Part shown: piece after piece, positions 35,684 to 54,690 of the stretch | Layout: every line of letters begins with the position of its first letter | Position numbering within the stretch: the stretch's first letter is position 1 | From: Thalassotalea fonticola | Lineage (GTDB): Bacteria > Pseudomonadota > Gammaproteobacteria > Enterobacterales > Alteromonadaceae | Direction of reading: 5' to 3' | DNA length: 64,000 nt | NCBI RefSeq assembly: GCF_032911225.1 | Contig: NZ_CP136600.1 | Span: forward strand, 62,001-126,000 | Translations under genes and position numbers: made by a program | The notes under the pieces: generated by a model | The model's input: the letters and a program-made list of their open reading frames with translations, nothing else | Told to the model about the DNA's origin: nothing | Databases searched by the model: none

Positions 35684-36709
35684 TTAGCTATCGGTTTTAG
35701 CTGTACCTGATGAATCTCTAACCAATAACTTAGGTGTAAATTGTTCACAAATCTCTTCAGATTTTTGCTCTCTTATTTCATTAATAAGTAAAGCGGTGGC
35801 ATTTTGAGCAATGGTTTGGTTTGGTTGATCAGCCGTGGTAATTTTTGGCCAAGTTTGACGTGAGAATGGGCTATTTTCAAAACCAACAATCGATAGTTCT
35901 TCAGGTATAGCAACATTTTCCAAACGGGAAGCAAATAAGGCTCCGGCTGCTATTTCATCGTTACATGAGAATATTGCAGTTGGTCTTGTTGATTTTGCCA
36001 GTAATGTTTGCGCACCCTGTACGCCTGATTCGAATGAGTATTCACCATCTATAATCAAGTCTTCACGACAGGTGATTTCATTCTTGGCTAGAGCAGCTTT
36101 AAAGCCTTCTATACGCTCGAAGGTCGATTTGTGCTCTTTGCCACCACTGATAAAGCCAATTTCTTGGTGTCCTAACTCAATTAAGTGTTCTGTTATTTCA
36201 AATGCAGCATCAAAGTCATTCACCATTATGCATGGAGATAGTGTATCTGGCACGGTATGGCCTGAAAATATTCTGACAAATTTAACCCCTAAATCATTTA
36301 GCCGATCAACAACATTAGGCATCTCTGAAAAAGGAGGGGTTAATACAACCCCTGCGATTCGAGAATGACGGATCATTGTGGTTATTTCTTCAAGAATATC
36401 TACCGATTTTGAATTACACGGGTGGATCAAAAGTTCGAAACTTTGTTTTCTGCATTCCGATAATATACCGTTTTGCATATCAATAATGTAATACGCGTTA
36501 GGGTTATCATATATATAAGCAATGTTATAAGATTTGGTACCTGCTAAGCTACGAGCTGCGAGGTTTGGTTGGTAATTTAGTTGCTTTACTGCAGCCATTA
36601 CTTTGTCACGAGTAGCCTGTCTTACCGATGCTTCATTATTCATTACCCGCGATACGGTTTTGATCGAAACACCTGATAATTTTGCTACATCGTTTATTGT
36701 TACTTTCAT
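35684..36709 (-). CDS. nagR: LacI-family repressor, probable NagR-type regulator of GlcNAc use
   Basis: About 341 aa. The N-terminal LacI HTH (MKVTINDVAKLSGVSIKTVSRVMNN) and hinge region (KQLNYQPNLAARSLAG) are followed by a periplasmic-binding-protein-like effector domain (YNIAYIYDNPNAYYIIDMQNG to KLLVRDSS). ATG 36709 has AAAGG eight bases upstream. It is divergent from pgi, and a 14-bp palindrome of LacI type lies on the pgi side; the same palindrome is at the TonB-receptor and nagK promoters. LacI-type NagR is the known GlcNAc regulator in Alteromonadales, with a GlcNAc-pathway intermediate as likely inducer. The assignment to nag control is inferred from these sites. Confidence 0.82.
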   Translation of the reverse strand: MKVTINDVAKLSGVSIKTVSRVMNNEASVRQATRDKVMAAVKQLNYQPNLAARSLAGTKSYNIAYIYDNPNAYYIIDMQNGILSECRKQSFELLIHPCNSKSVDILEEITTMIRHSRIAGVVLTPPFSEMPNVVDRLNDLGVKFVRIFSGHTVPDTLSPCIMVNDFDAAFEITEHLIELGHQEIGFISGGKEHKSTFERIEGFKAALAKNEITCREDLIIDGEYSFESGVQGAQTLLAKSTRPTAIFSCNDEIAAGALFASRLENVAIPEELSIVGFENSPFSRQTWPKITTADQPNQTIAQNATALLINEIREQKSEEICEQFTPKLLVRDSSGTAKTDS

Positions 36710-36905: not shown

Positions 36906-36935
36906 ATTGACAGCGCTGTCATTTAACCTTAGTTT
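36906..36935 (+). promoter_or_regulatory. Operator/promoter of pgi (TGACAGCGCTGTCA palindrome)
   Basis: Perfect 14-bp palindrome TGACAGCGCTGTCA at 36908-36921. Its left half completes a consensus -35 box TTGACA (36907-36912), with TAGTTT as a possible -10 box 17 bases on. Bound repressor would cover the -35 box and spacer. Confidence 0.75.
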
Positions 36936-39587: not shown

Positions 39588-39605
39588 AATGACAGCGCTG
39601 TTTTG
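39588..39605. promoter_or_regulatory. Imperfect LacI-type operator
   Basis: AATGACAGCGCTGTTTTG: the left half and centre match the palindrome at the other promoters, and the right half is degenerate (TTTTG for CATT). Possible auxiliary operator. Confidence 0.55.
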
Positions 39606-39822
39606 TTGTTTTTTAGCTGAAAATTGACTACTGAAGTTGAATATTTGTATAAAAGTAAATAAAAGCTATACTGAAGTGGGATGTTTTGTAAGTGTTTGTT
39701 TTTAAGGTTGTATATGCTTAATTTGTTAAGCTTGTGTTAATGGTTTTTGCCTTGTGTTTACAATTTTTTGTAATTTTTTGTAGCCAAGAGGTCAATTTCT
39801 GTGTATGGTTTTGATTAAGCTT

Positions 39823-39850
39823 TTGACAGCGCTGTCATTTGAGTTAAACA
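39823..39850 (+). promoter_or_regulatory. Operator/promoter of the GlcNAc-locus TonB receptor
   Basis: Palindrome TGACAGCGCTGTCA (39824-39837) overlapping a consensus -35 box TTGACA (39823-39828); TAAACA 16 bases further is a possible -10 box. The receptor ATG is about 106 bases downstream of the operator. Confidence 0.72.
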
Positions 39851-39942: not shown

Positions 39943-42522
39943 ATGTCGTCAATCAAATTCCAGAAACATGTACTAGCTAGTAGCATCGCTGTAGCACTGA
40001 TCGGAAGTGTTTCTTCTGTAAGTGCCGCTGAAGAAGCTCAAGCTGCAGAAAAGAAAATTGAAGTTATTGAAGTTACCGGTATTCGCGGTAGTTTAAAGAA
40101 AAACCTTAATGCGAAACGTTTTGCCAATGCCGTCGTTGAATCTATTTCAGCAGAAGACATTGGTAAATTCCCGGATAAAAACATTGCTGAATCTTTACAG
40201 CGTGTATCAGGTGTTACTATTAACCGAGGTTTTACCGGTGAAGGTAATGAAGTATCAATACGTGGTATTGATCCACAATTAACTCAAGTGCAGCTAAATG
40301 GTAACTTTGTTGCTTCTACTGGTTGGTTTTCACAATCTGCTAACAACCGTGCATTTAACATGGATTTGATGCCATCAGAACTAGTTGCTGGCGTTGATGT
40401 TTACAAATCTCCACAAGCTAATATTGATGAAGGTGGTGTTGGTGGTACGGTTATTATGCGTACACGCAAACCACTTGATATGGATGCTAATACTTTATTT
40501 GCCTCTGTAGAAATGAATTCAAACAGTCTAGCTGATGATGAAGGTACTGGTGTAACTGGTATGTATAGTTGGAAAGACGAAAGCGAAACGTTCGGTGTTT
40601 TAGTTACCGCGTCAACGCTAGAAACTATTGGTCGTGCACGTAAAGCTGAAAACTACTGGGAAGAAGGCTGGTCAGCTTCAGGTGTTGCCGCTTTTGATCA
40701 AGATAGAACTCGTGATGCCATTGATGTTACAGCTCAGTTTGCTGCAACCGATGATCTAGTACTTACTGCGCATGTTCTTTCTTTAGAGCTAGATGCCGCT
40801 AACACCAACCAGAATATGCTTGCTTACAACGGCTGTTGTGGTCCATGGAATAGTAATGCTGATAATGGTGGTTTTGGAGGCACGTATACTTCAACTGGTC
40901 GCTTAGCTGAAGGTGCAAATGGTTTACCTTTGACCGGTTCTGTTACTAACATTAATGGACTTGCTCAAGATACTAATACACGTCGTGCAAACATAGAAAC
41001 TACGGTTGCTGAGCTTTCTGCAGATTATGAAGGTGATGGGTATAGCATTCACGCTAAAATTGGTACTACAGAATCCGATGGCGGCAACGGTGGTAACTAC
41101 AACGGTTTATGGGGTAACGGTTGGACTACCGGTCCGGTAGATGATGGGATTGTAGTTGAATTTGATATGGATCTTAATGACACTATGTATCTTGCAACAC
41201 CAGGTTTTGATACTACTGATCCTACAAGCTTTGCTCACTTAGGTAGTTCAATTGCTCGAACTGAATTGTCAGATGAAGAATCTTACGCTCAAGTAGATCT
41301 TACCTTTGATGTTGATTTAGGCGCTATTTCAAGCATCGAAACAGGTTTAAAAATTCGTAGCCATGAATTTACTCAAAACCAACTTAATGCAACTTTAGAA
41401 GATGCGATTGTTACCGATATTTCAGAGTTTGCTGATGGCAATGTAAATGATTTTGGTGAAGTTATGGCTTCTGGTTCAATTTCATCTTATGTGAAATTAA
41501 ACGGTAGCAAATACGCGAACTTTTTAGATTCAAAAGTGACCGGTTGGGTACAACAAGATCCAACTTGGGGCGAAGTTGAAGAAGATATCATCTCAACATA
41601 TGTTCAAGGTAACTTTGAAGGTGACGGTTTCCGCGGTAATGTTGGTTTACGTTACACTGAAACAGAGCTGACGGGTAAAGCTATTGGACCAAATGGTGTG
41701 ATCAGTGTTCCTGGTGATTATTCAGATTGGTTACCAAGTATGAATATTTCTATCGATTTAGCTGATGATTTAATTTTACGTATGTCAGCGGCTCGGGTAA
41801 TGAGTCGTCCAGGCTATTCACAATTAACACCTTCTGTTAGTAATGTTAACCCAACTTCGTATACTGCAAATATGGGTAATCCTGATATGGACCCATTCCG
41901 TGCAACTCAAACGGATATCGGTTTAGAATGGTACTTTAACGAAGAGTCTTTAGCATCTGTTGCTTACTTTACCAAAGATATTAAATCTTTCGTAACCTCT
42001 AAACAGGAAACAATAAGTTTTGAAGATGAAAATGGTGTTGTACGTGATTGGCGTGTAACAGTACCAGCTCAAGGCCGTGGTGGTAATGTAGATGGTGTTG
42101 AGTTCCAGTATCAACAAACCTTTGGTAACTTTGGTACTATCTTTAACTATACCTACACAGATGCAAAAGCTGAAAATGATGCAGGTGACATTATTCAATT
42201 ACCAGGTAACTCAAGAAATTCATATAACCTAACGGGTTACTATGAAAATGATATGTTTGCTGCTCGTGTAGCTTATACATACCGTAGTGATTTCTTAGCA
42301 CCAGGTACAGCAATTGCCAACCAGTTAGATACTAACGATGAACAAGCGTTCTTAGATGCTAACTTTACTTGGCATGCAACGAAGAACATCGATATTACAA
42401 TTGAAGGTATCAACTTAGGTGGAGAAGTTGTTTATGCTCGTCACAGCGGCGGCGCACAAACACTACGTACTGCTGTAGATAACGGTTCACGTTACTTCCT
42501 TAAAGCAACATACCGTATGTAG
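39943..42522 (+). CDS. TonB-dependent receptor, probable GlcNAc/chito-oligosaccharide transporter
   Basis: About 859 aa. A signal peptide (VLASSIAVALIGSVSSVSA), a TonB-box-like IEVIEVTGIRGSLKKNLNAKR, a plug domain (FANAVVESISAEDIGKFPDKNIAESLQRVSGVTI to VGGTVIMRTRKPLD) and a barrel with CCGPWNSN in an outer loop. The N-terminal signature is of the receptor subfamily first defined in Xanthomonas and Caulobacter, often tied to carbohydrate loci. It should carry chitin oligosaccharides or GlcNAc across the outer membrane. ATG 39943 has GGGTAGGA upstream. Substrate is inferred from the neighbouring nag genes and the shared operator. Confidence 0.9.
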   Translation: MSSIKFQKHVLASSIAVALIGSVSSVSAAEEAQAAEKKIEVIEVTGIRGSLKKNLNAKRFANAVVESISAEDIGKFPDKNIAESLQRVSGVTINRGFTGEGNEVSIRGIDPQLTQVQLNGNFVASTGWFSQSANNRAFNMDLMPSELVAGVDVYKSPQANIDEGGVGGTVIMRTRKPLDMDANTLFASVEMNSNSLADDEGTGVTGMYSWKDESETFGVLVTASTLETIGRARKAENYWEEGWSASGVAAFDQDRTRDAIDVTAQFAATDDLVLTAHVLSLELDAANTNQNMLAYNGCCGPWNSNADNGGFGGTYTSTGRLAEGANGLPLTGSVTNINGLAQDTNTRRANIETTVAELSADYEGDGYSIHAKIGTTESDGGNGGNYNGLWGNGWTTGPVDDGIVVEFDMDLNDTMYLATPGFDTTDPTSFAHLGSSIARTELSDEESYAQVDLTFDVDLGAISSIETGLKIRSHEFTQNQLNATLEDAIVTDISEFADGNVNDFGEVMASGSISSYVKLNGSKYANFLDSKVTGWVQQDPTWGEVEEDIISTYVQGNFEGDGFRGNVGLRYTETELTGKAIGPNGVISVPGDYSDWLPSMNISIDLADDLILRMSAARVMSRPGYSQLTPSVSNVNPTSYTANMGNPDMDPFRATQTDIGLEWYFNEESLASVAYFTKDIKSFVTSKQETISFEDENGVVRDWRVTVPAQGRGGNVDGVEFQYQQTFGNFGTIFNYTYTDAKAENDAGDIIQLPGNSRNSYNLTGYYENDMFAARVAYTYRSDFLAPGTAIANQLDTNDEQAFLDANFTWHATKNIDITIEGINLGGEVVYARHSGGAQTLRTAVDNGSRYFLKATYRM

Positions 42523-42541: not shown

Positions 42542-42570
42542 AAAGGGAAGGCTGTGCCTTCCCTTTAATT
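42542..42570 (+). terminator. Terminator after the TonB receptor
   Basis: Perfect stem AAAGGGAAGGC / GCCTTCCCTTT with a three-base loop and a short T-rich tail. The tail is weak, so partial read-through into the halogenase genes is possible. Confidence 0.8.
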
Positions 42571-42621: not shown

Positions 42622-44181
42622 ATGTCTGATCAAATTATTAATCATGTGGTTATTGTTGGTGGTGGTACCGCTGGCTGGCTAACTGCTGCAAATTTAGCGA
42701 AACAGTTTAATAGTAAATTACCTAATTCCATTCAGGTTACACTCGTTGAGTCACCTGATATTCCAACCATTGGCGTTGGTGAAGGCACTTGGCCAACAAT
42801 GCGTAAAACGTTGGCAAAAATTGGCATTAGTGAAACAACATTTATGCGTAAATGTAACGCTTCATTAAAGCAGGCGACAAAATTTGTAAATTGGAAAGAA
42901 ACACCAAAAAATGATGTAAATAATCATTACTATCATTTATTTACTTCTATCTTTGACCCTTCTGAATTTAACTTAGCACCTTACTGGAATTTAAATAACA
43001 GCTCAGAAAAATTAAGCTACGCAGATTCTGTAAGTGTACAGGGGCAGGTCTGTGAATTGGGCCTGGCACCAAAAACAATGTTGAATAAAGAATTCGAAGG
43101 CGTCCAAAACTATGCCTATCATTTAGATGCCGGCTTATTCACCGATTTATTACGAGAACACGCCACTGAAAATTTAGGCGTAAATTTAATTTCAGCCAAT
43201 GTGACCGATGTTGACTTAGATGCTGATGGTTATATTGATACTATTTCTACCGACACCGCAGGTGTTGTACAAGGTGGATTTTATGTAGATTGTACCGGTT
43301 TTAAAAGTTTACTGTTGGGAGAAGCACTAAAAGTACCTTTTAAGAGTATTAAAGATACCTTACTAACCGATCATGCTATCACCATACAAGTTCCATATGA
43401 AGATGAGAACTCTCCCGTATCAAGCTGTACAATTTCTACCGCTCAAGAAGCGGGTTGGACCTGGGATATCGCCTTAGCAAATCGTCGCGGCACTGGTTAT
43501 GTTTACTCTTCTGAACATACAACTCATGAAAGAGCTGAGCAGGTATTAAGAGACTATATTGGCCCGCAAGCAGCAAACTTAGATGCTAAATTAATTAAAA
43601 TGAATGTTGGCTATCGAGAAAAGTTTTGGCATAAAAACTGTTTAGCCATTGGTTTGTCGGCAGCGTTTGTTGAGCCACTTGAAGCATCGGCGATATTTTT
43701 AATCGAAGCCGCCAGTAATATGCTTAGCGAGTTATTGCCGCAAAACCGCAAGTCTATGCATATTGTCGAGAAAAAATTCAATTCATCATTCACCTATCGA
43801 TGGCAGAAAACCATCGACTTTATTAAAATGCATTATTTTTTATCCAACAGAAATGAACAATTTTGGCTGGATAATAAAAACTTAGCAACCGTGCCAGATT
43901 CTTTATTGGAATCTTTAGAAAGGTGGCGTTACCAACCGCTTACTAATTATGATTTTGATAATGTTTATGAGCCATTCCCATTAGAAAGCTATCAATATGT
44001 GCTGTATGGGATGGGATTTGAACAAGATTTAAGTTTTAATCACAATGCTTATGCAAATAATGACACAGCAATAATGCATTTTAATAAAGTACAAGAAATT
44101 GCCAAGCATTTAAAAGCGCAATTACCTTTAAACAGAGAACTGCTAAAAAAAATACAACAATACGGTTTTCAAACAATATAA
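42622..44181 (+). CDS. Flavin-dependent halogenase-like protein 1 (tryptophan halogenase family)
   Basis: Protein of 519 aa. FAD-binding VIVGGGTAGWLTA (residues 10-22); GVGEGTWPTMRKTL; Lys83 in NASLKQATKFVNW aligns with the catalytic Lys of PrnA/RebH; EAGWTWDIALANRRGTGYVYSS corresponds to the WxWxIP motif that blocks monooxygenation, but here the final Pro is Ala (residues 279-284, WTWDIA); SAAFVEPLEASAIFLIE is the second FAD contact. The natural substrate is unknown; relatives beside TonB receptors in Xanthomonas and Caulobacter have been reported as brominases of free indoles. Followed by a SapC-family gene and then by a second copy of the pair. Needs a flavin reductase, which is not encoded here. 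Confidence 0.87.
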   Translation: MSDQIINHVVIVGGGTAGWLTAANLAKQFNSKLPNSIQVTLVESPDIPTIGVGEGTWPTMRKTLAKIGISETTFMRKCNASLKQATKFVNWKETPKNDVNNHYYHLFTSIFDPSEFNLAPYWNLNNSSEKLSYADSVSVQGQVCELGLAPKTMLNKEFEGVQNYAYHLDAGLFTDLLREHATENLGVNLISANVTDVDLDADGYIDTISTDTAGVVQGGFYVDCTGFKSLLLGEALKVPFKSIKDTLLTDHAITIQVPYEDENSPVSSCTISTAQEAGWTWDIALANRRGTGYVYSSEHTTHERAEQVLRDYIGPQAANLDAKLIKMNVGYREKFWHKNCLAIGLSAAFVEPLEASAIFLIEAASNMLSELLPQNRKSMHIVEKKFNSSFTYRWQKTIDFIKMHYFLSNRNEQFWLDNKNLATVPDSLLESLERWRYQPLTNYDFDNVYEPFPLESYQYVLYGMGFEQDLSFNHNAYANNDTAIMHFNKVQEIAKHLKAQLPLNRELLKKIQQYGFQTI

Positions 44182-44222
44182 CAAATAATTGAACTCTAAA
44201 AACAGTGTTCAGGAGAAGTAAC

Positions 44223-44924
44223 ATGGCTGATATTCAAGCAATAAATAATAAAATTCATAGCAATATTAAAATTAAGCACAATCCAGCATTGGCTCAAAGT
44301 GCAAATAGACACTTCGTGCCGTTAGTTGTACAAGAGTTCGCCGCGGCCAGCCAAGACTTTCCTATTGTTTTTATTAAAGACTCAGAAACAGGACAATTTA
44401 GAGCCATTGCATTATTGGGCTTAAAGCCAGAAGAAAATTTATTTGTTAGTGAAGATTCATGGCTTGCCACATACAAGCCACAATCATTGTCTTTATACCC
44501 ATTCTTATTTAGTCAACAAGAAGGCAGCGATCAAGGCGTTTTATGCTTTGATGTAGAAAGTGATTTAGTCAATGAAGAAGAAGGTGACGCCTTATTTGAT
44601 AGCGACGGTAAACAAAGCACTTGGTTAAATAATAAAGCTGAAAGTGTGGTTAAATTTATTGAAAATAATTATGCCACACAGGGCTTCATCAAAATGTTGA
44701 TTGAAAGAGACTTACTCACTGCCCAAACATTAAATTTAAAGTTAGAAAATGAACAAGAATACGCATTAAATGGCTTATACACCATTAATGAAAAAGCATT
44801 AAATGAGCTAAGTGATGAGCAATTTTCGATACTTAGAACCAGTGGTGCATTAAAAGCTATTTATGCTTCACTATTATCAATGCAGTGTATTCATAATCTG
44901 GCTAGTAAAAAGTTAGCTAAGTAA
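44223..44924 (+). CDS. SapC family protein 1
   Basis: About 233 aa. The SapC-family pattern is NRHFVPLVVQEFAAASQDFPIVFIKDSETGQFRAIALLGLKPEENLFV, then DSWLATYKPQSLSLYPFLF, an acidic VNEEEGDALFDSDGKQS, and a C-terminal helical part. The family is named from Campylobacter S-layer genes, but in gammaproteobacteria its function is unknown and it travels with TonB receptors and halogenase-like proteins. No signal peptide, so probably cytoplasmic. ATG 44223 has AGGAG seven bases upstream. Confidence 0.85.
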   Translation: MADIQAINNKIHSNIKIKHNPALAQSANRHFVPLVVQEFAAASQDFPIVFIKDSETGQFRAIALLGLKPEENLFVSEDSWLATYKPQSLSLYPFLFSQQEGSDQGVLCFDVESDLVNEEEGDALFDSDGKQSTWLNNKAESVVKFIENNYATQGFIKMLIERDLLTAQTLNLKLENEQEYALNGLYTINEKALNELSDEQFSILRTSGALKAIYASLLSMQCIHNLASKKLAK

Positions 44925-44938
44925 TAAGGCATAATCGT

Positions 44939-46498
44939 ATGGCAAAAGTAATAAACAATGTATTAGTTGTAGGTGGTGGCACCGCCGGCTGGCTTAGCGC
45001 ATCAATACTGGCCAAACAATTGAATAGTATTTCTCCTGATGCGGTACAAGTTACCTTGGTTGAATCGCCTAATATTCCTATTATTGGTGTTGGCGAGGGG
45101 ACTTGGCCAACAATTCGGACAACATTGGAAAACCTTGGTATTGACGAAGGTGAGTTTATGCGTGAATGCGATGCCACGTTTAAGCAAGGTTCTCAGTTTG
45201 TAAACTGGGCTGAAACACCAAAAGGTGATGAAACACAAAGTTACTACCACCCCTTGAGCGCAGTATTTCATTCATCATACGATTTTAATTTAGCACCTTA
45301 TTGGTTATTGGGTAATGCTGCCGACAAAGCTTACGACCAAGCCGTTGCTACGCAAGCATACGTTTGTGATCAAGGCTTAGGACCTAAAAAAATTACAACT
45401 CCTGCTTTTGATGCTATTCAAAATTACTCGTATCATTTAAATGCTAATAAATTTGCTGGGTTTTTAGCAAAACATAGCACCGAGAAATTAGGTGTTACAC
45501 AAATCAAAGCCAATGTTACTAAGGTTAATTTAGACGCCGAAGGTTTTATCCGCTCAGTTGAAACTGATACTGCAGGAGAGCAGGTAGCTGATTTCTTTAT
45601 TGATTGCTCAGGCTCAAAGGCAATTTTAGCTGATGGAGCTTTAGATATTCCTTGGCTTAAAATTGATGATGTATTGTTTAATGACACGGCCATAGCAATG
45701 CAAGTCCCTTATGAGTCTGCTGACACACCCATTGCTACGCATACTATCGCAACCGCTCATGAGGCCGGTTGGACTTGGGATATTGGATTACATAATCGCC
45801 GCGGTGTTGGCTATGTGTATAGCAGTAAATATACAACAGACAAGCGAGCCGAAGAAGTACTTCGAGAATATGCTGGCCCCATGTCTGAAGGAATCGAAGT
45901 TCGAAAAATTCCATTAAATTTAGGTTATCGAGAAAAATTTTGGCATAAAAACTGTGTTGCTATTGGCATGTCTGCCGCATTTATTGAACCATTAGAAGCT
46001 TCGGCTATTTTCCTTGTCGAAGCCGCGGCCAATATGCTTGCTGACCAATTTCCTCGCACGCTTGATGCAATGCAATATGTTGAAGAAAAATACAATTCTA
46101 CGTTTCGTTTGCGTTGGGATAAGAGTGTTGATTTTGTCAAACTTCATTATTGTATTACCAAGCGAGAAGATACACCTTATTGGGTTGATAACTGTGCAAC
46201 TGAATCAATACCTGAAGCATTACAAAAACGTTTAGCGCATTGGAAAACTCATCCTCCAACTAAATATGATTTTGATTATGCCTATGAACCGTTTGTATTA
46301 GATAGTTATTTATTTGTGCTTTATGGAATGAAATATGATGTAGATATTTCAGTAAACAGTTCATCTTTTGCTCGAACAGAAGAAGCCGTTAAAAAGTTTA
46401 AAAGCGTTGATAATGTTAATGAGATGCTAACTAGGGAGCTGCCTACACATAGGGAGTTAGTAGAAAAGGTGTATAAATACGGGTTTCCAAAACTTTAG
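44939..46498 (+). CDS. Flavin-dependent halogenase-like protein 2 (tryptophan halogenase family)
   Basis: Protein of 519 aa, the same length as protein 1 and clearly its paralogue along the whole chain: VLVVGGGTAGWLSASILAKQL, GVGEGTWPTIRTTLE, catalytic-Lys region CDATFKQGSQFVNW (Lys82), HEAGWTWDIGLHNRRGVGYVYSS (WxWxI with Gly where Pro is usual) and MSAAFIEPLEASAIFLVEAAANML. Starts 14 bases after SapC 1, so the genes are one transcription unit. The two enzymes may act on different substrates or form a heteromer; no experiment is implied by the sequence. Confidence 0.87.
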   Translation: MAKVINNVLVVGGGTAGWLSASILAKQLNSISPDAVQVTLVESPNIPIIGVGEGTWPTIRTTLENLGIDEGEFMRECDATFKQGSQFVNWAETPKGDETQSYYHPLSAVFHSSYDFNLAPYWLLGNAADKAYDQAVATQAYVCDQGLGPKKITTPAFDAIQNYSYHLNANKFAGFLAKHSTEKLGVTQIKANVTKVNLDAEGFIRSVETDTAGEQVADFFIDCSGSKAILADGALDIPWLKIDDVLFNDTAIAMQVPYESADTPIATHTIATAHEAGWTWDIGLHNRRGVGYVYSSKYTTDKRAEEVLREYAGPMSEGIEVRKIPLNLGYREKFWHKNCVAIGMSAAFIEPLEASAIFLVEAAANMLADQFPRTLDAMQYVEEKYNSTFRLRWDKSVDFVKLHYCITKREDTPYWVDNCATESIPEALQKRLAHWKTHPPTKYDFDYAYEPFVLDSYLFVLYGMKYDVDISVNSSSFARTEEAVKKFKSVDNVNEMLTRELPTHRELVEKVYKYGFPKL

Positions 46499-46606
46499 AA
46501 TATTCAGGCTGTTAGAAATTTTATGAAAATTCACTTGTAATAGGCTGTCTGTACAGTTTAGTCTAGTGACTTCATAAAAATAGGCCTGCATTTTTGGAGT
46601 AGTAAG

Positions 46607-47320
46607 ATGAGCCAACAAAACATACAACCATTAAATAAAACTGCGCACGCTAAAACTAAAGTTAAAGCGCAAAAAAATTTTTTACACGTGAGCTCGCAAC
46701 ACATGGCTCCAGTAGTCGTACATGAATTTTCAAGAGCCTCAGCCGAATTTCCAGTCGTTTTTGTAAAAAACTCTGAGTCTGAAAGCTTTCAACCAGTTGC
46801 GTTATTTGGCGTTAAACCTGGCGAAAATCTATATACAGTAACTGAAAGCTGGGAAGGAACATATGCACCTGCGTCTGTGACTAACTTCCCTTTAGCACTT
46901 GTTCCTGAAACAAAAGATGCAAATAACTTTATGGTTGTCATCGCAACCGACAACGCTGTTGTAAATGAAGATGAAGGTAATGCGTTATTTGAAGATAACG
47001 GTGACGAGTCAGAATATTTAACTCGTCGTAAAGAAGCGTTAGGCAAGTATTTTGAGCATGCACAAATTACGCAAGCATTTACTAAAGAATTAGTTGAAAG
47101 AGATTTATTAACTCAACAGAACTTAGAGTTGACTCTTGGCAGTGAAAAAATCCAGATCAATGGTTTATATCTGGTTGATGAGAAGAAGCTTAATGAATTA
47201 TCTGATGAAGATTATACAGCGCTTCGAAAACGTGGTTTCTTAGCGCCAATATACGCGCACTTGAATTCAATGCATCAGTTACATCGTTTAGTGAAAAAGA
47301 AAGTAACTCTGGCTAGTTAA
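46607..47320 (+). CDS. SapC family protein 2
   Basis: Protein of 237 aa, paralogue of SapC 1: SSQHMAPVVVHEFSRASAEFPVVFVKNSESESFQPVALFGVKPGENLY, ESWEGTYAPASVTNFPLALVP, VNEDEGNALFEDNGDESEYL, and a closing LNSMHQLHRLVKKK. Its basic N-terminal 25 residues (TAHAKTKVKAQKN) are predicted unstructured. 108 bases after halogenase-like protein 2; a strong terminator follows, closing the halogenase/SapC unit. Confidence 0.85.
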   Translation: MSQQNIQPLNKTAHAKTKVKAQKNFLHVSSQHMAPVVVHEFSRASAEFPVVFVKNSESESFQPVALFGVKPGENLYTVTESWEGTYAPASVTNFPLALVPETKDANNFMVVIATDNAVVNEDEGNALFEDNGDESEYLTRRKEALGKYFEHAQITQAFTKELVERDLLTQQNLELTLGSEKIQINGLYLVDEKKLNELSDEDYTALRKRGFLAPIYAHLNSMHQLHRLVKKKVTLAS

Positions 47321-47345
47321 TCGTTTTTCTTAAAACTTTTAATTA

Positions 47346-47371
47346 AAACCCAGTGTTTACTGGGTTTTTTT
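47346..47371 (+). terminator. Terminator of the halogenase/SapC unit
   Basis: Stem AAACCCAGT / ACTGGGTTT with a four-base loop and a run of T. A second small hairpin, ATGCCT/AGGCAT, follows at 47372-47388. Confidence 0.88.
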
Positions 47372-47415: not shown

Positions 47416-50061
47416 ATGAACAAATTTATTAAAATATTATGTTGTACTGTGTTTCTAAGTGCTTGTACTGATGTTAAACAACAGTCTCCAGAGCCCTCTG
47501 ACAATACAATTTATCAATCAACAGTTGATCACTTTGCTGACACTCTAAAGGTTGAATATCAGCTAATCACCAATATTCCTGATGAACAATGCGACCAAGC
47601 ACGCAGTGAGGGTAACTGTTTTCAATTGCAATTAAATTTAACCACTGCTAAAGATTTTATATCAACTGATTGGGAAATCTACTTCTCTCAAATTAATCCT
47701 GTGCAAAGTGTTGAAAGCGAACTCTTTAGGATTGAACATGTAAATGGTGATCTGCATAAGATCATTCCAACTTCTAACTTTACAGGTTTCCATGCAGGTA
47801 AAACATATGGCTTAAATTATCGTGTTGATTTTTGGACGTTATCAGAAACAGATGCTTTACCAAACTATATAGTTAACATTAATGGCTTGATGCCACGGGT
47901 AATAAAAAGTACACAAACACAAATTGATGCTGATACTGGTCTTGAAATTTATCCTTTTGTGAAAAATTTTAGCAGTGTCGAAAAACACTTTAAACGTTCG
48001 GCAACAGATGAAACTGTTTGGGCTACGGCGAATGTATTATTTGAGCGTAATGCACAAATGAAAGTAGCCAACAATAAACTGGCTCACAGTTTAATTCCTA
48101 CCCCTAAAAAGTTGCAAGTAGCCAGTACAGGTAAATATCTTGATTTGTCGAATGGTATTTCTTTAACTTTAAATGGCGTAAACATCAACAAAATCACAGC
48201 TGCAGTTGAACGTTTAGCTCACCTTGGCATTACCGAAAATACACAAGGTGTGGCAGTTAACCTGAATAAAAATGAAAAGCTTGTAGGTGAGGCGGGGAGC
48301 TATCAAATAGTTAGTGATGAACAAGGTATCATTATCAGCGCCAATAATGATATGGGCTTGTTTTATGGATTACAAACTATTGCTGGCTTAGTGTCATTAG
48401 ATAATTTAAGCATTCCTCATGTAACTATTGAAGATGAACCACATTATGAGTTTCGTAGTATGATGGTGGATGTTGCTCGAAATTTTCATTCAAAACAGTT
48501 CATTTTTGATTTACTCGATCAAATGGCCGCGTACAAATTAAATAAATTTCATCTTCACCTTGGTGATGATGAAGCGTGGCGTTTGGAAATTAATGACTTA
48601 CCAGAGCTTACCGATATTAGCTCTAAACGTTGTTTTGATTTAAGTGAGCAAACTTGTTTGTTACCACAGTTAGGCGCTGGAGTTGATCCAAACAGTTCGG
48701 TGAATGGTTATTACAGTAAACAAGATTATAAAGAAATTTTACAATATGCATCCAAGCGCCATATCCAAGTGATCCCATCATTAGATATGCCGGGTCATTC
48801 ACGTTCATCTATTGTGGCAATGAAAGCTCGTTTCAACAAGCTAATGGCACAGGGTGATGAGAAGGGGGCTAAACAATATCTGTTACATGACAAAAACGAT
48901 GCAACAGTATATTCATCAATACAATATTATAACGACAATACGATCAATGCATGTATGGAGTCATCTTATGATTTTGTGGCAAAGGTTATGGATGAAGTTA
49001 AAGCAATGCATAGCGACGCTGGTCATCCGTTAACACGCTATCATATTGGCGCCGATGAAACGGCAGGAGCGTGGGTTGAATCACCTATTTGTAAAGAGTT
49101 CATTGCAAATAATGGCTTAGGTATTACTAAAGCGGAGCAGCTCGGGAGTTATTTTGTTGAACGGGTTGCAAAAATATTAGCCGAACGTGATATTGAAACC
49201 GCTGGCTGGAATGATGGCATGATGCATACAAATTCAAAAAATATGCCTGAGACGGTGCAAGCCAATGCTTGGGGGTTAATTCAATGGCAAGGCCATAAAG
49301 AAGCGCACAAACTGGCCAATCAAGATTGGGACGTTGTAGTATCTAGTCCTGACGTTACTTATTTTGATTTTCCTTATGAACCGGATCCTAAAGAGCACGG
49401 TTATTACTGGGCTTCCAGACATTCTAATACCGAAAAATTATTTCAATTCATGCCAGATAACTTACCTGCGCATGCTGAATTTTGGCTAGATAGAGAAGAT
49501 AAACCTTATAGTACTGATGACACGGTTCAACTGAATGAGCAAGGCGAAATCATTTCTTCTCCGCTTAAACCAGGTAAAAAGCTTGCCGGCTTACAGGGGC
49601 AATTATGGAGTGAGAATACCCGTAATGATAACTTAGCCGAGTATAAAATATTCCCTCGTTTATTTGCTTTAGCAGAGCGTGCCTGGCATAAACCTAATTG
49701 GGCCGTCCCTTATTCATTTAGCGGCCAAGTTTATAACCAAGAAAGCAATCGATTCACTGTTGAAATGCGCAATAATCGCGATCAACAATGGGCCAACTTT
49801 GCCCGTGTGATTGCCCAAAAAGAGCTCGCTAAATTAGATAAAGCGCAGGTGTTTTATCGAATTCCTACCGTTGGTGCAAAAATTATTGATTCCCAATTAT
49901 TCATCAATAACGCTTATCCAGGTTTGGCCTTGGAATATAAATTGACTGATGAGTCATGGCAAATATGGACAAAACCACTGGAAATAAGTGGGGATGTTGA
50001 AGTTAGAGCTCGTTCAATAGATTCTAAAAGAGCAGGCAGGAGCTTGTTTTTATTGAATTAA
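47416..50061 (+). CDS. Beta-N-acetylhexosaminidase, GH20 lipoprotein (chitobiase type)
   Basis: Protein of 881 aa. A lipoprotein signal (MNKFIKILCCTVFLSAC, Cys at 17) anchors it in a membrane facing the periplasm or surface. Domains: carbohydrate-binding CHB_HEX (about 35-190), GH20b (about 225-345), GH20 catalytic barrel (about 350-770: RSMMVDVARNFHSK, NKFHLHLGDDEAWRLEI, and the catalytic pair Asp547-Glu548 in HIGADETAGAW) and a C-terminal CHB_HEX_C-like Ig domain. It releases GlcNAc from chitobiose and longer chito-oligosaccharides by substrate-assisted catalysis. It supplies the substrate of the nagK-nagB-nagA-nagP operon downstream. Confidence 0.95.
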   Translation: MNKFIKILCCTVFLSACTDVKQQSPEPSDNTIYQSTVDHFADTLKVEYQLITNIPDEQCDQARSEGNCFQLQLNLTTAKDFISTDWEIYFSQINPVQSVESELFRIEHVNGDLHKIIPTSNFTGFHAGKTYGLNYRVDFWTLSETDALPNYIVNINGLMPRVIKSTQTQIDADTGLEIYPFVKNFSSVEKHFKRSATDETVWATANVLFERNAQMKVANNKLAHSLIPTPKKLQVASTGKYLDLSNGISLTLNGVNINKITAAVERLAHLGITENTQGVAVNLNKNEKLVGEAGSYQIVSDEQGIIISANNDMGLFYGLQTIAGLVSLDNLSIPHVTIEDEPHYEFRSMMVDVARNFHSKQFIFDLLDQMAAYKLNKFHLHLGDDEAWRLEINDLPELTDISSKRCFDLSEQTCLLPQLGAGVDPNSSVNGYYSKQDYKEILQYASKRHIQVIPSLDMPGHSRSSIVAMKARFNKLMAQGDEKGAKQYLLHDKNDATVYSSIQYYNDNTINACMESSYDFVAKVMDEVKAMHSDAGHPLTRYHIGADETAGAWVESPICKEFIANNGLGITKAEQLGSYFVERVAKILAERDIETAGWNDGMMHTNSKNMPETVQANAWGLIQWQGHKEAHKLANQDWDVVVSSPDVTYFDFPYEPDPKEHGYYWASRHSNTEKLFQFMPDNLPAHAEFWLDREDKPYSTDDTVQLNEQGEIISSPLKPGKKLAGLQGQLWSENTRNDNLAEYKIFPRLFALAERAWHKPNWAVPYSFSGQVYNQESNRFTVEMRNNRDQQWANFARVIAQKELAKLDKAQVFYRIPTVGAKIIDSQLFINNAYPGLALEYKLTDESWQIWTKPLEISGDVEVRARSIDSKRAGRSLFLLN

Positions 50062-50125
50062 ATTCAATTTTTAAAATTAATTAATATAAAGAATTATATT
50101 TATATTAAAAAAATGTAAAAACATA

Positions 50126-50154
50126 ATGACAGCGCTGTCATTTGTATGTAATAT
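50126..50154 (+). promoter_or_regulatory. Operator/promoter of the nagK-nagB-nagA-nagP operon
   Basis: Palindrome TGACAGCGCTGTCA (50127-50140). ATGACA (50126-50131) serves as -35 box and TAATAT (50149-50154) as -10 box, with a spacer of exactly 17. The operator covers the -35 box and most of the spacer, the classical arrangement for repression. Confidence 0.8.
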
Positions 50155-50238: not shown

Positions 50239-51123
50239 ATGAAAAGTAATAAACAACAGCTGTTTTTAGGTATTGATGGCGGAGGCAGCAAGTGCAAGGC
50301 TGTGATCCTGAATAATTCAATGCAAGTGCTGGGTGAAGGCATCTCGGGTGCTGCCAATCCTTTTCATAATTTAGAACGAGCACAACAATCAATTAGTCAC
50401 GCTGCAGAGCTGGCATTAACAGATGCTAATTTAGATATTTCTTTAAAAAGCGAACTCATTGCTGGTGTTGGGTTAGCCGGTGTGAATTTGCCAAAATATT
50501 TTGATCTAATGCAGCAATGGCAACACCCGTTTAAAAGCATGCATTTAGCTACTGATTTACATATAGCATGTTTGGGTGCTCATAGTGGAGAAGATGGTGC
50601 CATTATGATCACTGGTACAGGTTCATGTGGATACTTAACCAATCAAGGCGAATCATTAGTCATTGGCGGCCATGGTTTCCCGCATGGTGATGTTTGTAGT
50701 GGTGCTTGGTTAGGCTTTAAAGCGGTAGAAAATGTATTACTTAGCTCAGACGGCATCATTAAAGATACATCGTTAACCGAAAAGATATTTCGCGAATTAG
50801 GTTGCACTGATTCTAATACTTTAATTGAAACCATTGTCGGTAATGGCGCAACCTTTTATGCAAGATTAGCAATACATGTTTTTGACGCTGCCGATGCTGG
50901 AGATAAAGTTGCGATTGAGATCATTACCGAAGGTTGCCAGTACTTTGAAGCCGTATTTTACAAGTTAATGGCAATGAATCCTAATAAATTGTCACTAATT
51001 GGTGGTCTAAAACCTCGTTTGATGCAGTGGTTACCAGAAGCCGTGGCAACACAAATTAGCGAGCCTGAAAATCCCCCTGAAATTGGCGCAGTCCTTTTTG
51101 CTATGAACGAGCATAAAAACTAA
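50239..51123 (+). CDS. nagK: N-acetylglucosamine kinase, BadF/BadG/BcrA family
   Basis: Protein of 294 aa. ASKHA-fold ATPase: phosphate-1 loop FLGIDGGGSKCKAVI, ATDLHIACLGAHSGEDGAIMITGTGSCGY (phosphate 2), GGHGFPHGDVCSGAWLGFKAVEN, and an adenosine motif near LSLIGGLKPRLMQWL. Belongs to the eukaryote-like/BadF kinase family that serves as NagK in Shewanella-type GlcNAc pathways, distinct from the ROK-type E. coli NagK. Makes GlcNAc-6-P in the cytoplasm after NagP uptake. First gene of the operon. Confidence 0.92.
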   Translation: MKSNKQQLFLGIDGGGSKCKAVILNNSMQVLGEGISGAANPFHNLERAQQSISHAAELALTDANLDISLKSELIAGVGLAGVNLPKYFDLMQQWQHPFKSMHLATDLHIACLGAHSGEDGAIMITGTGSCGYLTNQGESLVIGGHGFPHGDVCSGAWLGFKAVENVLLSSDGIIKDTSLTEKIFRELGCTDSNTLIETIVGNGATFYARLAIHVFDAADAGDKVAIEIITEGCQYFEAVFYKLMAMNPNKLSLIGGLKPRLMQWLPEAVATQISEPENPPEIGAVLFAMNEHKN

Positions 51124-51176
51124 CTGGTTGATTTTTAAAACGAACACGTAAGTTAAACAAATAATTGAGTAATGTT

Positions 51177-52172
51177 ATGACCACATTAATGGAACAAGAA
51201 GCTAAGCAAACACCAAAAGTAATTGCTGAGCAAATCAAATTAAATGCAGCGGTTGCTGAAAAAATTGGCAATAAACTGACTACTATTGATCCAAAAATGG
51301 TGATGATTATCGGTCGTGGCTCTTCTGATCATGCTGGTGTATTTGGTAAATATTTAATTGAAATTGAAGCTGGTATACCTACATTTGCAGCTGCACCTTC
51401 TGTTGCATCTGTTTATGGCAAAACCTTAAAACTTGATAATGCGTTTGTAATTGTTATCTCTCAATCAGGCCGCAGCCCAGATATCTTATCACAAGCACAA
51501 ATGGCGAAAGATGCCGGTGCTTACGTTGTAGCATTAGTTAATGATGAAACATCACCACTAGCCGAAATTGCTGATGATGTTCTACCACTGCGCGCAGGCC
51601 CTGAAAATTCAGTTGCAGCAACTAAAAGCTATTTAGCTACCTTGTCTGCGTTATTGCAATTAACTGCTTATTGGAGCAAAAATGACGAATTGGTTTCTGC
51701 TCTAAATACTTTGCCAGAAGCGCTTTTAAAAGCAATTGATGCACCTGCTCAGTTAACTATTGATGGCTTAGGTGATACTCGAAACTTGGTGGTATTAGGT
51801 CGCGGTTTAGGTTATGCAGTGTCTAAAGAAATTGCTCTTAAATTAAAAGAAGTATGTTCAATACACGCTGAAGCATTTTCAAGTGCAGAGTTTTTACATG
51901 GTCCCGTTACTTTGGTCGCGCAAAAATTAACAATATTGGATTGTCATGTAAATGATGAGTCGGATCAGTCTCATAAAGAACAAATCATCGAAGTTAAATC
52001 CCGTGGTGCTGACTTAATTCACTTACAACAAATTGTTAATGATGTTCACCCTAGATTAGCGCCTTTATTAGTACTACAACGTTTTTATCTAGATGTAGAG
52101 AAAGTAGCACTAGCGAAAGGTTTTAATCCTGATGAACCGCAAGGTTTGAAGAAAGTAACCAGGACGCTTTAA
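51177..52172 (+). CDS. nagB-II: Glucosamine-6-phosphate deaminase, SIS type (NagB-II)
   Basis: About 331 aa with two SIS domains: MIIGRGSSDHAGVFGKYLIE, VIVISQSGRSPDILSQAQMAKDAGA, GPENSVAATKSYLATLSAL; second SIS NLVVLGRGLGYAVSKEIALKLKEVCSIHAEAFSSAEFLHGPVTLV; C-terminal FNPDEPQGLKKVTRTL. This is the isomerase half of glucosamine synthase without the glutaminase domain, the nonhomologous NagB-II of Alteromonadales. It converts GlcN-6-P to Fru-6-P and ammonia. ATG 51177 preferred over TTG 51165. Its stop is one base before the nagA start. Confidence 0.92.
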   Translation: MTTLMEQEAKQTPKVIAEQIKLNAAVAEKIGNKLTTIDPKMVMIIGRGSSDHAGVFGKYLIEIEAGIPTFAAAPSVASVYGKTLKLDNAFVIVISQSGRSPDILSQAQMAKDAGAYVVALVNDETSPLAEIADDVLPLRAGPENSVAATKSYLATLSALLQLTAYWSKNDELVSALNTLPEALLKAIDAPAQLTIDGLGDTRNLVVLGRGLGYAVSKEIALKLKEVCSIHAEAFSSAEFLHGPVTLVAQKLTILDCHVNDESDQSHKEQIIEVKSRGADLIHLQQIVNDVHPRLAPLLVLQRFYLDVEKVALAKGFNPDEPQGLKKVTRTL

Positions 52173-52173
52173 T

Positions 52174-53295
52174 ATGCTTAATACCATTAACATTGCAACA
52201 TTCTTTGATGGCCAAAAACTGCGTAAAAATGTAGCGGTGAGCATTTCTAATGGCAAAATTGTTAGCATAGATAAAGCGGCAAGTGATGTACAGCCAGGAA
52301 TTATGGCTCCGGGTTATATTGATGTGCAAGTTAATGGTGGTGGCGGGGCATTATTTAATAGCGCTCCCACTGTTGAGACAATTAAAACCATAGGTGCCGC
52401 TCATGCAAAGTTTGGCACAACCGGTTTTTTACCTACCTTGATCACCGATAAAGTTGATGTGATGCAACTCGCGGCTGATGCCGTATGTGAAGCTATAAAG
52501 CAAAAAACGCCGGGTGTTTTAGGTGTACATTTTGAAGGGCCACATTTATCAATTCCTAAAAAAGGAGTACATAGCCCTGAATTTATCCGCGGTATTACCA
52601 ATGCTGAAATGGCGGTGTTTACTCGTCAAGACCTTGGCAAAGTAGTTGTTACTTTAGCCCCCGAAAATGTATCTATTGAAGATATTAAAACGTTGGTAGC
52701 TGCTGATGTTCATGTTTGTTTAGGTCACTCTAATGCAGACTATGAAACCGTGATGAAAGCGTTAACTGCAGGAGCCACAGGTTTTACTCATTTGTTTAAC
52801 GCAATGTCGGCATTTGGGGCTCGTGAACCTGGAATGGTTGGCGCAGCATTGCTAGATGATAACAGCTGGTGTGGATTAATTGTTGATGGTCATCATGTTC
52901 ATTTCGATGCAGCCAAACTGGCAATTAAGGCTAAAGAAAATGGCAAAATGATGTTAGTGACTGATGCCATGCCGCCGGTTGGCACTGATGACGAAAGCTT
53001 TCCTTTCTTTGATTCAAAAATCATTCGTACTGGTGACCGGTTAAACGCACTTACTGGTGAACTGGCTGGCTCTTGTTTGGACATGGCTGGCGCGGTTATA
53101 AATACCGTTGAACATTTGCAGGTAGAATTTACTGAAGCGCTGCGTATGGCATCAACATATCCTGCTGAGTTTTTAGCATTAGACAATCAAAAAGGGCGCC
53201 TGCAACCAGGCGCCTGTGCAGACTTTGTTATACTCAATGACAATTTGTCGGTTAAGCAAACTTGGATTTCCGGGCAGCCAGTATTTAAGAATTAG
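52174..53295 (+). CDS. nagA: N-acetylglucosamine-6-phosphate deacetylase
   Basis: Protein of 373 aa. Amidohydrolase fold: APGYIDVQVNGGGGALFN, HFEGPHLSIPKKGVH (metal-binding Glu), CLGHSNADYETVMKALTAGATGFTHLFNAMSAFGAREPG (two metal-ligand His), LIVDGHHVHF, and the catalytic Asp in MLVTDAMPPVG. The first metal position reads IDVQVNG, with Gln where other amidohydrolases have HxH, as is common in NagA. Yields GlcN-6-P plus acetate. Separated by one base from nagB-II. Confidence 0.95.
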   Translation: MLNTINIATFFDGQKLRKNVAVSISNGKIVSIDKAASDVQPGIMAPGYIDVQVNGGGGALFNSAPTVETIKTIGAAHAKFGTTGFLPTLITDKVDVMQLAADAVCEAIKQKTPGVLGVHFEGPHLSIPKKGVHSPEFIRGITNAEMAVFTRQDLGKVVVTLAPENVSIEDIKTLVAADVHVCLGHSNADYETVMKALTAGATGFTHLFNAMSAFGAREPGMVGAALLDDNSWCGLIVDGHHVHFDAAKLAIKAKENGKMMLVTDAMPPVGTDDESFPFFDSKIIRTGDRLNALTGELAGSCLDMAGAVINTVEHLQVEFTEALRMASTYPAEFLALDNQKGRLQPGACADFVILNDNLSVKQTWISGQPVFKN

Positions 53296-53382
53296 CATTT
53301 AATCTACAATGATTAAAACCAATTAAAACAGCAAAATAAAAATAATAAAAACTTTAATAAGCTGAAAACAAAAGGCAAAATT

Positions 53383-54690
53383 ATGACAATATCGATTGAA
53401 ACTCAATCTAATAAACAAAGCAGTATTATCCCAATGGCGATAGTCGCAGGGTTATTTTTCATTTTGGGCTTTGCGACCTGGCTTAATGGTTCTTTAATGC
53501 CTTATTTAAAACAAATATTGCAACTTTCACCATTCCAAGCCTCTCTCATTCTTTTCTCTTTTTACATTGCAGTAACGTTTACAGCGCTGCCTTCAGCATG
53601 GGTTATTCGCAGGGTTGGTTATAAAACCGGAATGGCGTTGGGTATGGGCGTTATGATGCTTGCCGGTCTTTTGTTTATACCAGCAGCAAAAAGCCAAATA
53701 TTCGCTTTGTTCTTGCTTGCCCAATTGGTAATGGGAACGGGTCAAACATTGCTGCAAACGGCAGTTAATCCGTATGTTGTTCGAATTGGACCTGAAGAGT
53801 CTGCTGCCGCGCGCGTCAGTGTGATGGGGATTTTAAACAAGGGTGCAGGAGTTGTTGCACCAATTGTGTTTAGCGCATTAATTTTGGATAGCTTTAAAGA
53901 TCGAGTTGGTACTGAACTCAGTCAAATACAAATAGATGAGATGGCTAATGGTCTGGTACTTCCTTATTTGGGAATGGCAATTTTCATCGGTATATTAGCT
54001 ATTCTTGTTAAAAAATCACCTTTGCCGGAACTAGAAAGTGAAGGCGATACTAGCGAAAGTGGCAAAGGGCATTTAAAAGAGGCATTATCGCACCCAAATC
54101 TTGCTCTTGGTGTTGCCGCATTATTTTTCTATGTTGCCGTTGAAGTGATAGCCGGTGATACGATTGGTACATTTGCATTATCGCTTGGTGTTGAGAGCTA
54201 CGGTGTAATGACATCATATACGATGGTTTGTATGGTTGTGGGCTATAGTATCGGGATTTTAACAATCCCAAGATTCATTTCTCAACCTACAGCGTTAACA
54301 ATTTCGGCGGTATTAGGCTTAGTATTAACAGTATTAATTGTTACCGGTGATAATACCTCATACACAATCGCCAACACCCTGTTAGTACCATTTGGCGGTA
54401 CCGCATTGCCAGATACCTTATTAATGATTGCTTTATTAGGCCTAGCAAACGCTATCGTTTGGCCAGCAGTATGGCCGTTAGCCTTATCGGGCATGGGTAA
54501 ACTTACCAGCGTAGGCTCAGCATTACTGGTAATGGGAATATCTGGAGGTGCATTTGGGCCTCTATTTTGGGGCTTAACAAGTTCTGCTACTGACTTAGGT
54601 CAGCAAGGTGGTTATATGGTTATGTTTCCTTGTTACCTATTCATCTTATTTTATGCCGTGAAAGGCCATAAAATGCGTAGCTGGTCTTAA
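53383..54690 (+). CDS. nagP: N-acetylglucosamine permease NagP (MFS, FucP-like)
   Basis: Protein of 435 aa with twelve membrane helices. Typical FucP-like start IIPMAIVAGLFFILGFATWLNGSLMPYLKQILQLSPFQASLILFSFYIAVTFTALPSAWVIRRVGYKTGM, and a VMGTGQTLLQTAVNPYVVRIGPEESAAARVS segment. Takes GlcNAc across the inner membrane with a cation. Follows nagA by 87 bases without a terminator, so it is probably the last gene of the operon. Confidence 0.92.
   Translation: MTISIETQSNKQSSIIPMAIVAGLFFILGFATWLNGSLMPYLKQILQLSPFQASLILFSFYIAVTFTALPSAWVIRRVGYKTGMALGMGVMMLAGLLFIPAAKSQIFALFLLAQLVMGTGQTLLQTAVNPYVVRIGPEESAAARVSVMGILNKGAGVVAPIVFSALILDSFKDRVGTELSQIQIDEMANGLVLPYLGMAIFIGILAILVKKSPLPELESEGDTSESGKGHLKEALSHPNLALGVAALFFYVAVEVIAGDTIGTFALSLGVESYGVMTSYTMVCMVVGYSIGILTIPRFISQPTALTISAVLGLVLTVLIVTGDNTSYTIANTLLVPFGGTALPDTLLMIALLGLANAIVWPAVWPLALSGMGKLTSVGSALLVMGISGGAFGPLFWGLTSSATDLGQQGGYMVMFPCYLFILFYAVKGHKMRSWS

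Follow-up and report, generated by a model that had tools for sequence, protein, structure and literature searches.

A receptor-linked cassette of halogenase-like and SapC family proteins in Thalassotalea fonticola and its possible role in oxidative tailoring

The N-acetylglucosamine (GlcNAc) utilisation locus of Thalassotalea fonticola, in which two flavin-dependent halogenase-like proteins (a and b), each followed by a SapC family protein, are encoded behind a TonB-dependent receptor, was analysed within a window of 64,000 nucleotides (nt) (contig NZ_CP136600.1, positions 62,001 to 126,000, forward strand). The comparison with other genomes suggests, tentatively, an oxidative tailoring cassette linked to the receptor. 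Among solved structures the best relative of both halogenase-like proteins is the annotated tryptophan halogenase PDB 2pyx (480-497 bits), presumably from Shewanella frigidimarina, and the next best are 9lu2 (417-451 bits) and 9ltb (413-429 bits); all three carry the WxWDI[GA] motif and EPLEA as found here. The indole halogenases BrvH (6frl) and Xcc4156, the latter of which we take to be entry 6y1w, belong to the same Pfam family with lower similarity (216-231 bits). The free-tryptophan halogenases PrnA, RebH, PyrH and Thal share the sequence family and the Lys and Glu of the present proteins, but WxWDI[GA] stands here in place of WxWxIP and a receptor operon in place of a biosynthetic cluster. 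QhpG, LodB and GoxB are maturases with a role on protein tryptophan; membership in this group was rejected, as the NCBIfam scores of 22-43 bits are far under the cut-offs of 240-400. For Xcc4156 an open site, the suggestion by its authors of 'possibly even peptides' as substrates, and inactivity on free tryptophan have been described (PMC7336383); the native substrates of the BrvH/Xcc-type halogenases are given there as unknown, and TonB does not occur in the main text of that paper.

The carbohydrate utilization (CUT) loci of Xanthomonas and Caulobacter resemble the present locus in combining a receptor with transporter, enzymes and regulator for each sugar, as given in the main text of PMC1790865, where neither halogenase nor SapC occurs. 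In an experiment with dispersant, halogenase transcripts were reported for Colwellia and for phages, with hypotheses only as to their meaning (PMC11337851), and the main text of PMC8269204 contains neither TonB nor SapC. A literature search, with most subscription papers outside it, gave no title on an association of halogenase, SapC and receptor. The name SapC comes from an S-layer protein of Campylobacter fetus; the PF07277 name is common to both, but by eye the N-termini here carry no apparent signal peptide, and the locus lacks an S-layer context.

Distribution of the cassette beside TIGR01782 receptors

The T. fonticola genome revealed six halogenases, three SapC proteins and 18 TIGR01782 receptors scoring over the cut-off. 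All three SapC genes lie directly after a halogenase gene and all six halogenases fall within four receptor loci; the surrounding 18-19.5 kb of the other 14 receptors gave no match to halogenase, SapC, Cupin_8 or DUF6445. The four loci are the nag locus, an alpha-glucan locus with GH97/pullulanase, a GH3/GH1-like locus (by eye) and a lysine-type locus whose genes encode saccharopine-dehydrogenase-type enzymes together with a Na+/H+ antiporter. Cassette loci of relatives were assigned by eye to glucose (zwf/pgl), beta-glucan and galactose, and agar and galactose loci were found on plasmids of Catenovulum adriaticum and Pseudoalteromonas nigrifaciens. The constant neighbour of the cassette is the TIGR01782 receptor family and no single nutrient.

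In a set of 59 related genomes, T. fonticola included, 87 SapC genes were found, of which all but one (on G017:C9) entered the census, 86 in total. Within 6 kb of SapC, a halogenase was present in 61/86, a TonB receptor in 65/86, Cupin_8 in 27/86 and DUF6445 in 13/86, which bears out the proposal of the first-pass annotation that a conserved module is tied to TonB receptors and nutrient uptake. In 62 of the 65 cases, across many genera, the receptor shared the strand and stood upstream; in 52 of 61 the halogenase shared the strand at a distance of at most 350 nt. Neither receptor nor halogenase was near 20 SapC genes, 14 of them in one clade of 18; at three loci (L142, L143 and L188) the absence is uncertain because they lie near contig ends. 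A set of 80 named loci, gathered through SapC alignment and biased to close relatives, showed receptor matches in 63 and halogenase matches in 52, all 52 with a receptor. A full-length halogenase was present in 27 of 28 genomes having TIGR01782 over the cut-off and in none of 11 without it, the respective counts for SapC being 26/28 and 0/11. One relative, whose assembly is 87% complete, has the receptor and halogenase frames in pieces and SapC intact.

The phylum was sampled through 299 genomes, at most five candidates per genome being scored in the halogenase search and a full-length halogenase being defined by our own cut of best E < 1e-40. SapC was found in 104 genomes and a full-length halogenase in 36, of which 35 also have SapC (the exception is G169); in reverse, 35/104 SapC genomes have a halogenase. 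As relatives share ancestry, Fisher tests overstate independence. The expected co-occurrence held in so far as the pairing of halogenase and SapC goes beyond chance, but it is not confined to GlcNAc receptors. The two-protein enzyme that had been proposed is not supported as an obligate one, because 69/104 SapC genomes have no full-length halogenase, and halogenases without a nearby SapC also exist. Twenty such SapC-free loci were taken from the top of the halogenase list, being chosen for the absence of a SapC match nearby; a TIGR01782-like receptor match was present in 16/20, and the IP motif in 26/29 distinct halogenase sequences typed at these loci.

Layout and control of the GlcNAc locus

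The features of the locus, in window coordinates, are as follows.

35684..36709, minus strand: LacI-family regulator, probable GlcNAc regulator (NagR-like); profile matches below cut-off, position in the nag locus
36906..36923, no strand: operator-like palindrome upstream of pgi (named by eye); inverted-repeat and pattern search
39588..39605, no strand: degenerate operator copy upstream of the TonB receptor; 3 mismatches
39822..39839, no strand: operator-like palindrome upstream of the receptor-halogenase-SapC operon; pattern search
39943..42522, plus strand: TonB-dependent receptor of the TIGR01782 (TonB-Xanth-Caul) family; 580 bits, cut-off 310
42542..42568, plus strand: hairpin in the gap between receptor and halogenase a; read by eye
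42622..44181, plus strand: flavin-dependent halogenase-like protein a, 519 amino acids (aa), A-type GWTWDIAL; profile match, motif alignment, tree
44223..44924, plus strand: SapC family protein a, 233 aa from ATG; profile match, start by eye
44939..46498, plus strand: flavin-dependent halogenase-like protein b, 519 aa, A-type GWTWDIGL; profile match, motif alignment, tree
46607..47320, plus strand: SapC family protein b, 237 aa; profile match, AlphaFold2 model with pLDDT 92.5
47345..47370, plus strand: terminator-like hairpin followed by a T run, after SapC-b; inverted-repeat search
47416..50061, plus strand: GH20 beta-hexosaminidase; profile match
50125..50142, no strand: perfect operator palindrome of 18 bp ahead of the gene for GlcNAc kinase; inverted-repeat and pattern search
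50239..54690, plus strand: GlcNAc catabolic genes for BadF-type kinase, NagB-II deaminase, amidohydrolase (NagA-like) and NagP transporter; profile matches

The coordinates, lengths, order and families of the two pairs between the receptor and GH20 agree with those first annotated. Against PF04820 (cut-off 21) halogenase a reaches 408 bits and halogenase b 415, both at full length; the two SapC proteins reach 228 and 231 bits against PF07277 (cut-off 28.9). The NagP transporter (775 bits, cut-off 625) and NagB-II (554 bits, cut-off 430) both score above the cut-offs of their NCBIfam equivalog models. All LacI-family model scores of the regulator are under the cut-offs, and its start (MKVTIND) was picked by eye. 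Judged by eye, ATG 39943 is the likeliest start of the receptor and ATG 44223, with AGGAG upstream, that of SapC-a, in place of GTG 44205. A precursor peptide inside the operon was considered and rejected, since the gaps measure at most about 110 nt and would hardly accommodate one; the 534 nt ahead of the receptor were not part of this examination. The earlier view that the module does not make a secondary metabolite is supported in so far as window positions 1-56000 gave no signs of a secondary-metabolite cluster. The hairpin at 42542..42568 has no T run; it is a possible attenuator or mRNA stabiliser and could set unequal expression within the operon.

The palindromic operator TGACAGCGCTGTCA was located upstream of the receptor, pgi and GlcNAc-kinase genes. 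The inverted-repeat search of the window showed the kinase gene to be preceded by AATGACAGCGCTGTCATT, with a near copy ahead of pgi. When three mismatches were allowed, four matches were obtained in the window against 0.04 expected, one of which sits about 84 nt ahead of the first start codon in the receptor frame. The exact 14-mer core has four sites in the 4.9-Mb genome, at the receptor, pgi, kinase and acs genes, the last (G000:C1:4624057) about 150 nt before an acetyl-CoA synthetase-like gene (acs, by eye). Deacetylation of GlcNAc-6-phosphate frees acetate, with which an operator ahead of acs fits, and this copy would link acetate use to the GlcNAc regulon. Because an operator common to other GlcNAc genes precedes the receptor, the receptor, halogenases and SapC probably form a single GlcNAc-controlled operon, and the LacI gene product of 35684-36709 may be the protein which binds the operator. 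The link to GlcNAc proposed in the first-pass annotation is thus upheld by the common operator, but not as a GlcNAc-specific one, since the cassette loci serve several sugars and one is of lysine type. The looser pattern TGACANCGNTGTCA, counted between 700 nt ahead of the receptor start and 120 nt beyond it, was present in 62/155 distinct receptor genes across the collected loci, and all 62 have a halogenase or SapC at most 5 kb away; this pattern alone is no proof of GlcNAc control, as close Pseudoalteromonas relatives account for many of the 62, and so do glucose-type loci.

Proteins of the cassette

In halogenases a and b the FAD motif GGGxxGW and the Lys context are intact, as is the Glu of EPLE, and GWTWDIAL and GWTWDIGL take the place of the IP motif of other relatives; the earlier reading of the FAD motif, the Lys context and the replaced Pro was correct. 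A survey of 193 non-identical halogenase-like proteins from the collected loci gave 102 A-type sequences (WxWDI without Pro), 62 with IP and 29 others. The catalytic Lys was kept in 192/193 and the catalytic Glu in 190/193, a near-invariance which points to catalysis; the residue following the Glu is Ala in 101/102 A-type enzymes. The two proteins are 52% identical and fall in sister clades of 7 and 6 members, with a support of 0.86 for the joint clade. Both clades contain Thalassotalea (L146, the same DNA as L044), Microbulbifer, Pseudoalteromonas and another family of the order. As each clade spans the same several genera, the split predates the divergence of these genera and reflects an old division of labour, contrary to the earlier statement that the pair was duplicated here. 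A divergent halogenase-like protein was also seen between two others at two loci and beside one at a third.

The fullest order, seen at six loci, is receptor, A-type halogenase, SapC, Cupin_8, B-type halogenase and DUF6445, the Cupin_8 and DUF6445 families being assigned by Pfam. One Cupin_8 protein compared with the PDB matched JMJD5 and FIH best, both of which we take to be protein hydroxylases, with JMJD7 and 3al5 lower, and HxD...H was present in 40/40 Cupin_8 proteins. DUF6445 gave no sequence match in the PDB. Its residues H, D, H and R are invariant in 18 aligned sequences, and a stricter motif pattern is complete in 29/43. The DUF6445 model (pLDDT 91.4) yielded 66 PDB fold matches at E <= 0.001, of which the best 50 are mostly 2-oxoglutarate (2OG) oxygenases; PHD2 ranks second among them, and prolyl-4-hydroxylases stand further down. 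By the HxD...H...R motif and the modelled fold, DUF6445 is a predicted 2OG-Fe(II) oxygenase.

The AlphaFold2 model of SapC-b (pLDDT 92.5, pTM 0.86) found no fold match among solved structures in the searches made, which does not by itself prove a new fold. The residues invariant in 22 diverse SapC sequences are H14, E40, P49, F52, G68, N74, W82, P88, P95, G124, F128, F158, L167 and S221, among which no catalytic signature was recognised. A SapC subfamily of eight loci lies near mraZ-rsmH-ftsL-ftsI-like cell-division genes (by eye), with neither receptor nor halogenase near. At three further loci (L139, L145 and L153) SapC is next to TetR/RND-efflux-like genes (by eye), as if the surrounding nag genes had been lost. 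In genomes lacking a full-length halogenase, 19 SapC loci were examined and none showed other cassette families; at seven, by our reading, SapC is associated with exported giant proteins or their exporters, and at four of these its neighbours are giant proteins with RTX repeats and/or a set of exporter genes (HlyD-, PqqD-, SecA-like). Eight plasmid regions were viewed among 56 matching records. Two are receptor-halogenase-SapC loci; on an Azospirillum plasmid the gene ahead of SapC encodes about 5,140 aa, and the final 2,640 of these gave no match in Pfam; the other five regions viewed showed neither the receptor-cassette nor the giant-protein pattern. A distant SapC-like frame (23% identity) was also noted in an unannotated faecal phage record (MT835646.1, 14535-15122).

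Explanations for the cassette and their significance

The reading which we prefer, while holding it to fall short of an even chance, is that of an oxidative tailoring cassette tied to the receptor, with a polypeptide as its substrate, in the first place the receptor chain prior to export. A polypeptide is favoured over a nutrient-derived substrate because the receptor family is constant, the nutrients vary and the Cupin_8 relatives include protein hydroxylases. The common operator, the conserved gene order, the co-occurrence with TIGR01782, the retained catalytic residues, the oxygenase fold of DUF6445, the peptides suggested for Xcc4156 and the SapC genes beside exported giant proteins also speak for this reading. 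A GlcNAc derivative would release the LacI-type repressor, by which the receptor and the tailoring enzymes would be made together. The enzymes, in which no signal peptide was seen by eye, would work in the cytoplasm, the modification being halogenation or hydroxylation of aromatic side chains; SapC may hold or present the polypeptide, and paralogues a and b may act on different sites. A wider form appears rather unlikely, in which cytosolic halogenases together with JmjC-type and 2OG oxygenases oxidise or brominate the sugar-induced TIGR01782 receptor before export and SapC is a polypeptide-binding adaptor serving exported surface proteins generally.

The receptor as substrate was assessed by residue comparison in 98 receptors below 70% identity, 69 halogenase-linked and 23 unlinked, the 6 with SapC only being left out; residue numbers count from GTG 39907. 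None of the three best candidates was convincing. Tyr 637 was present in a fraction of 0.61 of linked receptors against 0.04 of unlinked ones, and Trp 255 in 0.77 against 0.43, but both follow the receptor clade, since they are seldom present where a halogenase accompanies the receptor and SapC is missing (0.13 and 0.20, respectively). Tyr 166 (0.77 against 0.30, and 0.60 without SapC) is neither universal nor exclusive.

Several observations weigh against the preferred reading. No Trp, Tyr or His is at once general in the 69 linked receptors and absent from all 23 that are unlinked. The Cupin_8 matches include 3al5, presumably a tRNA-modifying enzyme, and the best 50 DUF6445 fold matches are mostly small-molecule oxygenases, with moderate TM-scores of about 0.35-0.54. 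The T. fonticola genome has a single Cupin_8, distant from the halogenases, and gave no DUF6445 match, the control of that search being likewise matchless. Only 7 of the 19 halogenase-free SapC loci tie to exported proteins, the rest having mixed neighbours; at five SapC genes of the census a receptor lies within 6 kb and a halogenase does not, and one relative has SapC and the receptor family with zero halogenase. Confidence in the preferred reading was kept low because no fixed receptor residue is supported and the DUF6445 folds do not favour proteins.

The halogenases may instead act on a small aromatic, such as an indole-type signal, a phenol or a glycan-borne compound, made or detoxified during sugar feeding, with SapC in an accessory or storage role. 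The intact catalytic residues, the control shared with uptake genes and the mostly small-molecule enzymes among the best 50 DUF6445 fold matches speak for it, as does the use of indole and derivatives by the BrvH and Xcc halogenases in vitro (PMC7336383). It is nevertheless considered somewhat unlikely, as the same cassette trails one receptor family across chemically unrelated nutrients, no aromatic-precursor genes were recognised by eye in window positions 1-56000, and SapC is left unexplained. A companion role in regulation or quality control of the receptor, in which the flavoprotein binds without modifying and senses oxygen or redox state and SapC is the main receptor-binding factor, would account for the 5/86 SapC that stay with the receptor where a halogenase is missing within 6 kb and for the altered IP and, in 101/102, altered residue after the catalytic Glu of A-type enzymes; the retention of Lys and Glu in nearly all 193 sequences makes it quite improbable. 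Quite improbable, too, is genomic hitch-hiking, by which a halogenase and SapC of general function merely borrow sugar-regulated receptor promoters. SapC does occur elsewhere, before mraZ/rsmH/ftsL/ftsI-like genes or with the efflux genes mentioned above, but order and strand are kept in 62/65 cases over many genera and separate cassettes stand at four receptors in one genome.

For the families concerned, SapC gains a reproducible set of partners and DUF6445 is placed, by motif and model, among the 2OG oxygenases. The context of the BrvH/Xcc-type halogenases offers a direct test, in which the receptor encoded next door would be examined.

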